Of a stretch of DNA of 64,000 nt, positions 28,401 to 34,400 are shown piece after piece (the first letter of the stretch is position 1; every line of letters begins with the position of its first letter). The translations under genes and the position numbers were made by a program. The DNA is from Toxorhynchites rutilus septentrionalis (Eukaryota; Arthropoda; Insecta; Diptera; Culicidae). The stretch is taken from positions 145,642,556 to 145,706,555 of the forward strand of contig NC_073746.1 in NCBI RefSeq assembly GCF_029784135.1, written 5' to 3'. The notes beneath the pieces were generated by a model, which made no database searches, was not told the origin of the DNA, and saw only the letters and a list, made by a program, of their open reading frames with translations.

Positions 28401-31400
28401 ACCAAATACCAAAAAATATTTTATTTGTGATGTATCGGCAATTGCTTTTCGGGTAGCCCAATATAAGTATTCCTAATAAGCGTGTTTCATTCTTCAAGGT
28501 CTTCCCTCAAGTAGCTCTGATCTTTTTAAATTTTGTGGCTGTGATTGATAGCAGAGATATAGATTTTAATTTTAGTTTGATTCATATATGATCGAGTTGA
28601 TCGTGGGATCCAATCCCAGCTTTGTTTAGACCGAGAAAAAAAACGGTTTCCCCTCCCAAAAAAATAAACTGTCAGAACCATAAACATGACATTGCCAAAT
28701 CCTCGCGCTCTCGAAAGGTGTTTCGGCTGCAATAAATCAAGGCATGAGTAATTAGGACTCTTTGCAGGAGAGAAGGATTCCTGTAAAATCCATTGTCTCA
28801 GAAGTGTCATCAACTGATTGCCTGAGAAAACGAGAAATGGAGCCGACCCATGCAGGTAACGGCGGTACTAAGGATCCCGGCTAGGAATAGGATGCGGGGA
28901 CGGATAATCCGGTAGAGAGAAGGATATGTGAAGAGATACGGAGAGCTCCTATGGAGAGTTCTCGTGGCTCCTATAAAAGGGAGAACTCCTCTGCTAGGAG
29001 TTCATAGTTCATTTGGTGCTTCTTGTGGCTAGTGTGCTCCGGACCAAGTGTGATACGAGGTTAAGAAGGTTAAGATAGCTAAGTCAGGTCGATACTGCAT
29101 GGTGGATAAGGTGTTGCAGTAAGTGATTGGTGACCGACAACTTTTAGTTAAATAGTTTGTTAAGATAGTTGAGCTTTCACTCTATGAACATGATGGATAC
29201 CGGTAAGTAGGTCATTTTTTTCGAAGTGGTACGAGCTCCAATTTTTACAAATTTAATTCCTGCGAGTGATCAAGCTAAGGCAATATACGATTAACATTGA
29301 TTCCTGTACCTTTGCTGAACCGCATTCAGTTGAAATACTTGCTGTACGGCAATGATATGGCGATCAATATAATCCGCTTCTCGAACGTTGTTGTGCATGC
29401 CTTGTTTTCATAAAACATTGTCGGCGATTTTTCGGGGAGTTCTGCCGTCATGCATTTTGAAATATAATATTTGTAGTACGGCTGGAACTCCTCGACTGAT
29501 CGCGAGGAAAACACAACGACCAGAATACTTGTTACAGTATTCCCTTCTCCAAGTTTGGTTTAGTTTTGTGATGATGGATATTCGTATTAAATTCTATAAT
29601 AAACTTGTTGACGATCTTTCGGGGAGTTTGGCCGCTATACATCACGGATTAAGATATTTGTAGTACGGCTAGAACTCCTCGACTGATTCAAACCAAAAGC
29701 AAAATATAGAAAAAATAGGTGACTGATCCAAAGCAAAACACAACTGCCGAAATACTTGTTACAGTATTCCCTTCTCCAAGTTTGGTTTAGTTTTGTGATG
29801 ATGGATATTTGTATCAAATTCTATAATATACTTGTTGACGATCTTTCGGGGAGTTTGGCCGCCATACATCACGGAATAATATATTTGTAGTACGGCTAGA
29901 ACTCCTCGACTGATCTGGAAACAACAGCAAAATAGCGAATAAAATAGGTGATGATTGTGTATTCCTCAAGTTGAGCGGAGAAAGTATTGTGGATTTGTGA
30001 TGGTTAGTCGCTCAAAAATACTTTTATTCCCGTATTATGGTTGGCGATCGTTCGGGGAGTTCTGCCGTCATGCATTTTGAAATATATTATTTGTAGTACG
30101 GCTGGAGCTCCTCGACTGATCCTAAGCAAAGAACAACGATTAAAATACTTATTACTGCATTACTGTATAGAAAGTGCTGGAGTTTTGTGAAGGTGTATGC
30201 TTGCTACAGAACAATATTATGTATCTAATTATACAATAAAAATGTTGATGATCTTTCGGGGAGTTCGGCCGTCGTGCATTAGGAAATAGGATATTTGTAG
30301 TACGGCAAGAACTTCTCGTCTGATCTAAAACAATAACAGAACAACCATTAAAATACGTGGTAGTGTATTCCTCAAGTTGAATGGGGGAAAGTGCTATGAA
30401 TTTGTGTTGGTGAATTTTCAACACACAATAACAAATACAAGGAGCGTTCGAAGAGTTCAGCCGTACCGCATAATTAGTTACAATATTTTACAATATTAAA
30501 CCATATTCGTACAAGTCGAAGATCTTCCGAGGAGTTCTACTGTCATGCATTATAAAATAAAACATCTGTAGTACGGTTAGAGCTCCTCGAACGGTCCAAA
30601 GCAAAACACGCCGCAAACACTTGCATTCTCCAAATTGATAGTAGAAGAACTTCGAATTAGTAGTAAATACCACATACATGTTGAAGATCTTTCGAGGAGT
30701 TCGGTCGTCATGCATTTTGGAATAGAATATTTGTAGTACGGCTAGAATGCCTCGGATGGTCTACAGCAAAAACCGACCACTAAAATACCTACTGTGGTCC
30801 CTACTAAGTGTGAAAGTGCTGTGAATTTATAATAATAACACATAACAATAAGTGACCGTACCATTTTAGGTGAACTCACTAGAGTTCGGTACGGCCTAAA
30901 CTCCTCGGATGAACCCAATCGAAAAAAACAACGACTGGATTACATTCTTCTACAAACTCCAGGTTGAGTATAAAAAGTGCTTTGAATTTATGGTAGTGCA
31001 TATCCAATGCACAATAATAATTTATAACGGACCTGTTGGCGATCCTTCGGGGAGTTCGGTCGTCATGCATTTTGGAATAGAATAATTGCAGTACGGCTAG
31101 AACTCCTCGGATGATCCACAGCGAAAATTGACCACGAAAACGTGTTAATGTTTTTCCAAGCTGAGTGTAAAAGTGTTCTATAAGTTGATCCCGTACCCAT
31201 GATTGAATACCTTAGGGGAGTTCGGCCGTCATACATTTTAATAGAATATTAATAGTACGGCCAGAACTCCACGGATGGTCCGAAGTGAAACCCAAATTGA
31301 GTATAAAAAGTGCCATGAATTTGTGATAGTGCATATTCAATACGTTTTTTTCGCAGAAGCCGAACTCAGGCATTATGAAATAACCATCTGTAGTACGGCT

Positions 31401-34400
31401 AAAACTCCTCGGACGGCCCATGAAAAAGAGCAACGATTAAAATGTGATAAAACATGAATTGAGAGTAAAAACTACGTATCAGCTAAGCAAAAGCACCAAG
31501 CATGTGTTGATTCCCGTACCATAGTTTACGATCTTCCGGGGAGTTCTGCCGTCATGCATCACAAAATAGAATAGTTGTAGTACGGCTGGGACTCCTCGAC
31601 TGATTGAAAGCAAAAATCAACGACTAGAATACATCCTAGTGCATTTCTTAAGTTCAGTGTGAAAAAATATGTGTATTTGTAATGGTGCCATGTTAAACAC
31701 ACAATAGTAGATTATAACGAACTTCTTGACGACTTCGGTCGCCACTGTGAATGTGTGTTAGAGTAAATGTAATGTACAATAATAGGATAGAACGAACTTG
31801 TTAACGATCTGTCGGGGAGTTCTGCCGTCGTGCATTTCGGAATAGAATATTTGTAGTACGGCTAGAACTCCTCGACTGATCCAGAACAAAAACAACGACG
31901 AAAATACGTAATACTATAATACCAAAGCTGTGTGTCAAAGTTCTGGAAATTTGTAATGGTCAAAATTGTAATTACAGCGAACTTTCGAAAAGTACAGTCG
32001 TATTGCATAACTAATATTTGTAGTACGTCTGGTACTTTTTGCACGTTCAAATGTGAAGTCACAAGTTGATGTAAACTTCTTTCTTAGAGACGATTCGATG
32101 TAATTTATCCAACTCATACGAAACATGAGTTGATTTCCGTACAACAACTTAGATCTTTCGGGGAGTTCTGCCGTCGTGCATTGCGAACATGGAATACTTG
32201 TAGTACGGCTGGAACTCCTCGACTGATCCAAGGCAAACAATCAACGACTGAAATGCGTGCTAGTTGGGTGTGAAGCAAGGGCTGTGCGCTCGTAACAGTA
32301 CATGTTTCATCTCAATAATAAATAACAACGAACTTGCTGGGGATCTTTTGGGGAGTTCAGCAGTTATGCATTGTGGAACAGAAAATTTGTAGTACGGCTA
32401 GAACTCCTCGGATGGACCACAGCAAAAAAACGAAAACTAAAATATGCGCTCGAAAACTGAGTGTTGAAAAGTGATTTATTGAATCTATTAAAATAAACTA
32501 CTACGAAAGTTCAAGTAGTTCTGCCATTTCTTGTGCTTTTCGAATGTTCAAATATAAAGCGACGGTACAAATATCGCACAGACTCGATTCAATTAAAAAC
32601 ATCCAGTATACATACAAAACGAGTGAATTCTCCAACCATGATTGACGATCTTCCGAGGAGTTCAGCTGTCATACATTAAGCAATAGAACATTTGTAGTAC
32701 GGCCGTGACTCCTCCGATGGTCCGAAGCAAAAACATCGATTGAAATACGTGCTCGTGTGATTCTAAAGTTCAGTTTAAAAACTGTTTGTGATGTAAATAA
32801 TCACAAAGCAGCAGTACAAAGTGCAAGTTTGATAGACAATAATAAATTACAGCGACCCTTCGAGAAGTTCAGCCGTATCGCATCGTGGTATATGATAATT
32901 GTAGTACGGAATGTACTCCTCGAATGTTTCAATGTAAAGCCAACTAAAAAAAAGTGATACACTGCAGATATTATTCTATATACATGTTGAATATTATTAT
33001 ATTTTGTGCTATTTGTCATACATATACAGTTATGATTTTATTTACCGAACTTTTAATTATAAAGTCAACTTAGATACTAACTCTAGTTCCCTGTCGCTAA
33101 GCCTTTTATAACTATAAATTTCAAAGTCAGCATAATTCAATCTTGGTTGGTTCTCGTTCATGATGTGTCGTGTTGCATCTGGTTCTCCGGATTCTGCTGA
33201 CGATGTCTTCTATGGCGATAGCGCTGGAATTTGTTTTGGCATCGTACGGTTCGTTGGAAATGTTTACATGATGACTGCGCGGCTCGATGATTCTCTGACC
33301 TTGATGTGTAGTGTGGATTGTTGTGCTGCTGGGCTGGTTTCCGTACATAACTTCCCCCGTCTTAGATTGAACCGTCCCAACCGTTCAACATGTTATGACA
33401 AGGTTTCGGCTCCCGTTAACATGTTTGGGTTGATGGTTATTACTGAACGAATTGATCTCGTTTCTTTGATTATGAACCAAATTATTATTGATACAATAAT
33501 GACAACATTATAATTGTTCCAAATGTGATAGTCCGACTTTTCTGCGTCATTATTTCAATATGTTCCAATCTGTGGCGGTTTTGAATATGCAATTGTTCAA
33601 AGGGTGTCATCTCTTTCTTTATTTCGTTGATGTGAACTGAGTACAGGGGTAGAACTGCCGGTTTGATTTCTGTATTGTAGTTTTGAGTTTTGGAAAGCTA
33701 TCGGTTTTAAAAACTCGTAAGTTTGATCATAGCTTTGAATTTTAATGCCTTGTGATTCTAGGATTTGGGTTGCGAAATCCAATTCTGATGGTTGCAGGAG
33801 TAGCTTGGAAATTATTCCGACTTTCACGAGTTGTTTAGATTCGAAGAGGTCTTCCAGCTGATGCCTAACTGCGTCGATGTTGAATATAATACTATGTATG
33901 TGTAATGTATGCTCGTATTTAATTGAGTTTTCTGAGTTCAACCTAGCTTGTTTGATAATATCATTGATTGCTATAGATTGTTTAAATGCATGTATCGTCA
34001 AATTGTTTATTCTTTCTTCAAATAATTTGCTTATTGCTATTTGTTCGCTATTTTCTGTGATAAGTGCATTATTTGAACTTTGTATTGTCTGAATTTGATT
34101 TCCAATTTTTAATAAATCTTCGTTGTCTAGGTTTCCAGTAATCATTTTGATGGCTGATCCTAAAAAGTTTAGTGACTTTTTCGTCCTTTTCCTAGGTATT
34201 AAGTTTTCAATTACAAAATTTGCTTGACTATGTTTTTGTTTGATGATTTTAACAATTTCACAAAATTTTGGATTTTCTTCTAATTTAGCTATTATTGGTT
34301 CGTATTGTTTTAATACAATTTTGAATGAATTCAAATTAAATCTATGTAATAATGTGTGGAAACCTTCTTTTATGAAAACTTTCCCTGTCTTTGCGGCAAA

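Follow-up and report, generated by a model that had tools for sequence, protein, structure and literature searches.

A probable amplified cluster of miR-2941-family microRNA precursors in the mosquito Toxorhynchites rutilus septentrionalis

RESULTS

A tandem array of hairpins homologous to mir-2941

We examined a stretch of 64,000 nucleotides from the mosquito Toxorhynchites rutilus septentrionalis (assembly GCF_029784135.1, contig NC_073746.1, forward-strand positions 145,642,556 to 145,706,555; hereafter the window, in whose positions all coordinates are given unless stated otherwise), which holds an array of tandem hairpins whose predicted transcript strand is the plus strand. Scanning 28500-33500 with the Rfam covariance model of mir-2941 (RF03193) under permissive filters, we found 16 strong hairpins between 29423 and 32932, all on the plus strand; every match covers model positions 1-82, with scores of 31.6-59.2 bits and E values from 7e-13 to 2e-4. 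Weaker units were scored with a covariance model of our own, R1, built from these 16 units, which it scores at 66-100 bits by construction. The original prediction, made from the letters of the sequence, had described about 18 units in about 3.6 kb at 29335..33000: number and size were a fair estimate, given 16 strong hairpins plus decayed and half units, and the repeated arms lie where it placed them, but the end at 33000 was wrong, as the array resumes with two units beyond a long terminal repeat (LTR) retrotransposon. The array consists of the following features.

28972..29202, plus strand: candidate promoter and first exon (putative role), with TATAAAAG at 28972-28979 and the exon end CCG/GTAAGT at 29202/29203
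29293..29371, plus strand: weak first unit, likely miR-2946 counterpart, with changed seed CTGTACGG (R1 13.4 bits, E 0.13; fold z -3.3)
29423..29504, plus strand: mir-2941-like hairpin 1 (RF03193 53.3 bits)
29610..29691, plus strand: mir-2941-like hairpin 2 (RF03193 52.7 bits)
29837..29918, plus strand: mir-2941-like hairpin 3, recent copy of 2 (RF03193 49.3 bits)
30043..30124, plus strand: mir-2941-like hairpin 4 (RF03193 51.2 bits)
30247..30328, plus strand: mir-2941-like hairpin 5 (RF03193 52.1 bits)
30442..30488, plus strand: half unit, only the 5' arm
30518..30599, plus strand: mir-2941-like hairpin 6 (RF03193 55.2 bits)
30683..30764, plus strand: mir-2941-like hairpin 7 (RF03193 52.4 bits)
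30887..30915, plus strand: half unit, only the 3' arm, with changed seed CGGTACGG
31038..31119, plus strand: mir-2941-like hairpin 8, mature begins CAGTACGG (RF03193 59.2 bits, top of the array)
31205..31283, plus strand: mir-2941-like hairpin 9, mature equals aae-miR-2941 at 21/22 (RF03193 31.6 bits)
31341..31421, plus strand: decayed full-length unit, seed and 3' arm retained, 5' arm gone (R1 13.9 bits, E 0.09; fold p 0.34, not significant)
31527..31608, plus strand: mir-2941-like hairpin 10 (RF03193 42.9 bits)
31803..31884, plus strand: mir-2941-like hairpin 11 (RF03193 59.0 bits)
31976..32051, plus strand: mir-2941-like hairpin 12, joint change in both arms (GAAAAGTAC / GTACTTTTT) (RF03193 47.3 bits)
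32149..32231, plus strand: mir-2941-like hairpin 13 (RF03193 50.5 bits)
32339..32420, plus strand: mir-2941-like hairpin 14, mature 21/22 (RF03193 50.4 bits)
32502..32552, plus strand: weak unit remnant (R1 12.1 bits, E 0.34)
32644..32725, plus strand: mir-2941-like hairpin 15 (RF03193 39.8 bits)
32851..32932, plus strand: mir-2941-like hairpin 16 (RF03193 35.0 bits)
33036..40167, minus strand: LTR retrotransposon of ~7.1 kb splitting the array, with gypsy-like pol and envelope-like open reading frame (ORF) pieces
40176..40270, plus strand: unit past the LTR element, an internal piece duplicated (R1 31.4 bits; Rfam 38.6 bits for 40201-40276)
40372..40451, plus strand: final unit, continuing into an (AG)n repeat (R1 29.5 bits)

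Hairpins 2 and 3 are a recent duplicate pair, spacer included. The two LTRs (33036-33351 and 39852-40167) are identical at 314 of 316 positions, which indicates that the element inserted recently; the (AG)n microsatellite at 40456-40639 abuts the last unit. Across the 902.6-Mb genome, GTAGTACGGCTAGAACTCCTC at up to 2 mismatches occurs at 14 sites, all within the window (13 in the array and 1 past the LTR element), whereas the reversed control has none. A genome-wide search for the mir-2941 family, in which 56 of 135272 first-look candidates were scored, likewise gave 17 rows at E<=1e-3 (16 on the plus strand and 1 minus-strand mirror), all in the window, with the qualification that divergent same-seed hairpins elsewhere in the genome could escape these searches.

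The 3' arm of the units corresponds, at up to 21 of 22 nucleotides, to the published mature miR-2941, TAGTACGGCTAGAACTCCACGG(A) (PMC2834634, PMC2797818; here and below, papers are cited for the passages that concern these small RNAs and their hosts). When the 16 Rfam-found units and three more chosen by their seed (31391, 40247 and 40423) were compared with it, two of the 19 matched at 21 positions, five at 20, eight at 18-19, three at 16 and one at 14, so that 15/19 match at >=18/22. Two marks of family membership were thus found, namely a mature sequence beginning UAGUACGGCUAGAACUCC on the 3' arm with the seed AGUACGG, and a covariance match to RF03193 over the full precursor length.

Conservation is concentrated in the seed and the fold

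Positions 2-7 of the mature sequence are identical in 16/16 Rfam-found units, and positions 1 and 8 in 15/16; two pieces with other seeds are excluded from this count, the weak first unit (CTGTACGG) and the 3'-arm half unit at 30887 (CGGTACGG). Mean pairwise identity among the 16 units is 0.98 in the seed, 0.74 in the rest of the 3' arm, 0.79 in the 5' arm and 0.66 in the loop. Over 120 pairs, the hairpin as a whole reaches 0.74 (shuffled 0.46), whereas the flanks of 82 nt reach 0.49 on the upstream side (shuffled 0.47) and 0.53 on the downstream side (shuffled 0.46). In the consensus, a stem of 24 pairs carries an 18-column loop, and 94.3% of cells pair; six pairs carry changes on both sides, compared to 1.6 +/- 1.0 in shuffles, a level that related sequences easily exceed. 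Against dinucleotide shuffles, fold z scores lie between -2.1 and -7.3 in the 16 strong units and at -2.9 and -2.0 in the two units past the LTR element. CNNC processing motifs can be listed for the units, which proves little, the units being homologous.

These data support constraint on the small-RNA region and on the fold. In agreement with the original prediction, the arms are conserved while the spacers have diverged to near the shuffled level, and the seed stands at 0.98 between flanks near chance, as expected of selection on the small-RNA region or the fold; equal divergence in arms and spacers, which that prediction had named as speaking against it, is not what the unit alignment gives. 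It had further proposed both strands of the fold as possible sources of small RNAs, yet the two strands are unequal: in 16/16 units the plus strand gives the more stable fold (mean -32.2 versus -21.6 kcal/mol).

A miR-2946-like first unit and two upstream hairpins

The 3' arm of the first unit matches aae-miR-2946 at 17/22, the match lying at 29342. When the non-seed part of miR-2946 was shuffled, 84/1000 queries matched as well somewhere in the window and 0/1000 within the first unit; genome-wide, at up to 3 mismatches, miR-2946 gave 1 match versus 3 in the reversed control, which is chance level, and no closer copy elsewhere. On the strength of the 17/22 match and of its place immediately before the first miR-2941 unit, which is also the Aedes order, this unit is likely the miR-2946 counterpart, with a changed seed.

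About 26 kb before the array lie two further hairpins, which fold as strongly as the array units:

2723..2778, plus strand: upstream hairpin, 3' arm containing TAGTACGG (R1 14.4 bits, E 0.06; fold z -5.6)
3026..3099, plus strand: second upstream hairpin, paralogue of the first, with TAGTACGG in the 3' arm (R1 16.9 bits, E 0.009; fold z -4.8)

Their matures agree at 18/21, and the stretch that holds them matches the genome once. Within the surrounding 264 kb, plus-strand copies of TAGTACGG are confined to this pair of hairpins, the array with its tail and two distant sites lacking such a foldback; the only minus-strand copy mirrors the first upstream hairpin. A kinship between the upstream hairpins and the array is probable. 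No close match to miR-2952 was found in the window, where the fewest mismatches were 7/22, at three places, one of them the upstream hairpin at 3073.

Genomic setting

The array lies antisense inside the last intron (~19.6 kb) of a JMJD7 gene:

22142..43374, minus strand: JMJD7 gene, C-terminal exon within 22142-22447 and other exons within 42050-43374 (ends approximate)

The JMJD7 intron had been recognized correctly in the original prediction; the strand of the array is opposite to that of the gene. Two exon pieces match JMJD7 chains of solved structures, the best being a chain named GH14974p, the Drosophila protein. The stretch just before the array, with its TATA and splice-donor motifs, matches the genome once and is a plausible promoter and first exon, as judged from these motifs. 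A plus-strand ORF of 66 aa at 41770-41967, also antisense in the JMJD7 intron, gave only a weak Pfam match (ARID, E 0.11) and is possibly a downstream exon of the array transcript.

Elsewhere in the window, exons of a MEAK7-like (TLDc) gene lie on the plus strand at 58599-59888, and ORF reading places two decayed histone H2A-like copies at 4823-6877. A histone 3' stem-loop is matched at 6833-6877 (41 bits), and more weakly at 5370 and 5429. Tandem repeats of ~143-147 bp with a common unit, each unit bearing a C-rich/G-rich block, occupy 25602-26396, 26815-27593 and 56288-56797, the first two being mutually opposite in orientation. A foldback at 24488-24566, both strands of which score below cut-off on several unrelated microRNA models (R1 28.3 bits), is probably a small inverted-repeat element.

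DISCUSSION

We conclude that the array is, with good probability, an amplified cluster of miR-2941-family microRNA precursors forming a maternal/embryonic polycistron, and that the locus amounts to an expanded and probably functional cluster belonging to a mosquito microRNA family already known. Homology, fold, plus-strand folding preference, seed constraint, copy number and location are read directly from the DNA; transcription, processing, stage and targets we infer. All the hairpins would be carried by one plus-strand transcript, which probably begins shortly before the array (TATA at 28972, predicted start near 29003), and Drosha and Dicer-1 would cut each of them into a 22-nt 3'-arm microRNA, nearly always starting UAGUACGG, with a predicted star strand near GGGGAGUUCUGCCGUCAUGCA. 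The 19 units starting UAGUACGG would yield 16 distinct 22-mers with one common seed, AGUACGG; because this seed is shared, the array would raise the dose of a single targeting specificity and add no new ones. The products would then repress or clear maternal messages in egg and embryo. Given that miR-2941 and its same-seed relatives are abundant in the ovary and early embryo of Aedes and Culex (PMC3698096, PMC2797818), maternal/early-embryonic repression is, by analogy, the most likely role in Toxorhynchites.

Several points weigh against this interpretation. The gathering score of RF03193, 60 bits, is reached by none of the 16 units (best 59.2 and 59.0), and a gathering-mode Rfam search of the whole window listed the histone stem-loop alone; as this listing threshold is missed by 0.8 bit, the units are here termed homologues and not certified Rfam members. 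Seeds are changed in the first unit and in the half unit at 30887. Since three of the 19 units were chosen by their seed, seed constraint is testable on the 16 Rfam-found units only, and even these are not seed-blind, as the RF03193 model itself contains the seed. The units share ancestry, so that their pair statistics are not independent, and gene conversion could hold the arms alike without present function, although a spread into the spacers would then be expected too. In Toxorhynchites amboinensis, a northern of 2009 that loaded 10 ug RNA per lane did not detect miR-N1 (= miR-2941) in stages ranging from 0-24 h embryos up to adults. The first 18 nt are common to miR-2941 and four T. rutilus units (29661, 29888, 31854 and 32390), and the probe should therefore have reacted were such units abundant in T. 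amboinensis; this species thus lacks the units, does not express them, or does so at a low level. Moreover, the host of the Aedes miR-2941/2946 hairpins is bZip1 (AAEL009263), which carries them in its first intron and is active in the female germline and in the early zygote (PMC2797818, PMC7367395, PMC4321024). This intronic location, a family trait reported for Aedes and Culex, is not shared by our array: over 264 kb, neither a search for the motif nor a small bZIP profile that we built found a bZIP domain within +/-100 kb (best profile hit E 0.24), and over the whole genome the nearest matches to Pfam PF07716 and PF00170 lie ~3 Mb away. Either the cluster moved, or the gene moved, or a bZIP protein was missed; the bZIP gene ~3 Mb away, which looks like vrille, has no AGTACGG in the 10 kb examined. 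Finally, AAEL009263 is listed among genes giving sense-strand PIWI-interacting RNAs (piRNAs) (PMC3259105), which makes some piRNA output from such a transcript possible.

Some of these points would suit an array that was ancestrally active and has since been amplified, is drifting, and is no longer expressed. The unit at 31341-31421 no longer has a 5' arm, other units survive as halves or a remnant, two pieces carry changed seeds, an LTR element sits inside, and the T. amboinensis northern was blank. Such decay is nevertheless unlikely, as it would leave unexplained why seed positions 2-7 are identical in 16/16 Rfam-found units amid neighboring sequence near chance identity, and why the changed unit at 31976 has preserved its fold through changes in both arms.

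The original prediction had likened the array to tapiR, the piRNA satellite of Aedes that reportedly gives tapiR1 and tapiR2 (Halbach et al. 2020) and whose size it gave as ~3.6 kb; the units would then feed 25-30 nt piRNAs with fixed 5' ends. The array is indeed a tandem array of similar size in a culicid, and the sense piRNAs of AAEL009263 fit such a reading, which we nonetheless regard as very improbable. The tapiR1 and tapiR2 sequences printed in PMC9781653 are absent from both strands of the window, where the nearest matches have 10/30 and 8/29 mismatches, respectively, while the real tapiR satellite lies elsewhere in this genome. Among the matches listed, 86 exact and 13 one-mismatch copies of a tapiR1 20-mer all fall at positions 270256260-270294526 (~38 kb) of the same contig; the totals at up to 3 mismatches, 179 and 18, contain many chance matches (reversed controls 81 and 105). 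This satellite has a period of ~190 nt, and a 3-kb piece of it holds both tapiR1 and tapiR2 and, on either strand, no TAGTACGG. BLAST of two 3-kb tapiR pieces against the array gave nothing better than E 0.25, whereas the units match a sequenced microRNA. The tapiR identity of the array is thus ruled out, both by its sequence and by the true tapiR locus ~124.6 Mb away, and homology to the miR-2941 family leads us to expect Dicer products of 21-23 nt with fixed 5' ends instead of 25-30 nt piRNAs. As an observation in its own right, the T. rutilus tapiR satellite, at ~38 kb and with at least 99 tapiR1 20-mers (0-1 mismatch), is far above the ~3.6 kb given for Aedes in the original prediction, and its size suggests that piRNA dosage may have expanded in T. 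rutilus too.

Hairpin RNAs (hpRNAs) have long stems giving several small interfering RNAs (siRNAs). Although the head-to-tail tandem hairpins on one strand recall an endogenous siRNA locus of this type, like Drosophila hp-CG4068, processed by Dicer-2 and loaded into Ago2, such an origin is hardly tenable here, because a 24-pair stem with an 18-column loop is microRNA-sized, with room for one 22-nt duplex and not for several siRNAs, constraint is strongest at one seed on one arm, and the homologous Culex hairpins give miRNA and miRNA* reads (PMC2834634).

An expanded miR-2941 cluster is best seen beside its counterparts in Aedes and Culex, each described with two miR-2941 hairpins and one relative in a bZip1 intron. 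The cluster of Aedes aegypti, with miR-2941 and miR-2946, resembles ours in its 3'-arm mature (up to 21/22), seed, precursor fold and same-strand tandem hairpins, as well as in order, Aedes coordinates (PMC2797818) placing miR-2946 directly upstream of the miR-2941 units, where T. rutilus has its 17/22 miR-2946-like unit. It differs (i) in copy number, with two miR-2941 hairpins plus miR-2946 in Aedes (PMC2797818) and 16 strong units plus remnants in T. rutilus; (ii) in setting, the bZip1 intron versus an antisense position in the JMJD7 intron with no bZIP found nearby; and (iii) in the changed seed of the miR-2946-like unit, unlike Aedes miR-2946. In Culex quinquefasciatus, the miR-2941/miR-2952 locus shares seed and mature, and two 2941 hairpins lie within ~350 nt together with a same-seed hairpin upstream (PMC2834634); these three hairpins compare with about eighteen in T. 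rutilus, whose window has no close miR-2952. The tapiR satellite, known to us through citing papers, is likewise a tandem array in a culicid and a potential source of abundant small RNAs, but it has another sequence and occupies another locus in the same genome.

In the open literature searched (apart from subscription papers, preprints and supplements), including passages of PMC2834634, PMC2797818, PMC3698096, PMC7448346, PMC9463151, PMC8256169 and PMC10455316, we found no report of more than two miR-2941 hairpins per species. One paper restricts the miR-2941/2946 cluster to Aedes (PMC9463151); another calls miR-2941 exclusive to Aedes at one point and specific to Culicinae at a second (PMC3698096); and miR-2946 is given as restricted to Ae. 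aegypti (PMC2797818). The T. rutilus cluster is larger than any that we found described and lies in a lineage where miR-2941 was reported undetected. The locus thus moves from a supposed piRNA satellite to a known microRNA family, the published picture of the range of that family changes, and questions arise about the expression of the array and about egg microRNA dosage in biting versus non-biting mosquitoes.

Toxorhynchites is named as a never-biting genus (PMC10455316), and miR-2941-3p and miR-2952-3p are higher in heads of the non-biting, autogenous Culex pipiens molestus than in biting pipiens, with fold changes of 5.3 and 9.9 (PMC10455316). One may speculate, with little confidence, that the copy number of microRNAs with the AGUACGG seed was driven up in the non-blood-feeding Toxorhynchites because egg-making without blood goes with a higher maternal/embryonic dose. 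Were this true, the array would be a mosquito equivalent of the vertebrate embryonic arrays of high copy number. Zebrafish miR-430 is a large embryonic microRNA array of this kind; it is unrelated in sequence to the T. rutilus array, for which an embryonic role is the proposed one, and resembles it in having many tandem precursors with one seed, a dosage device.

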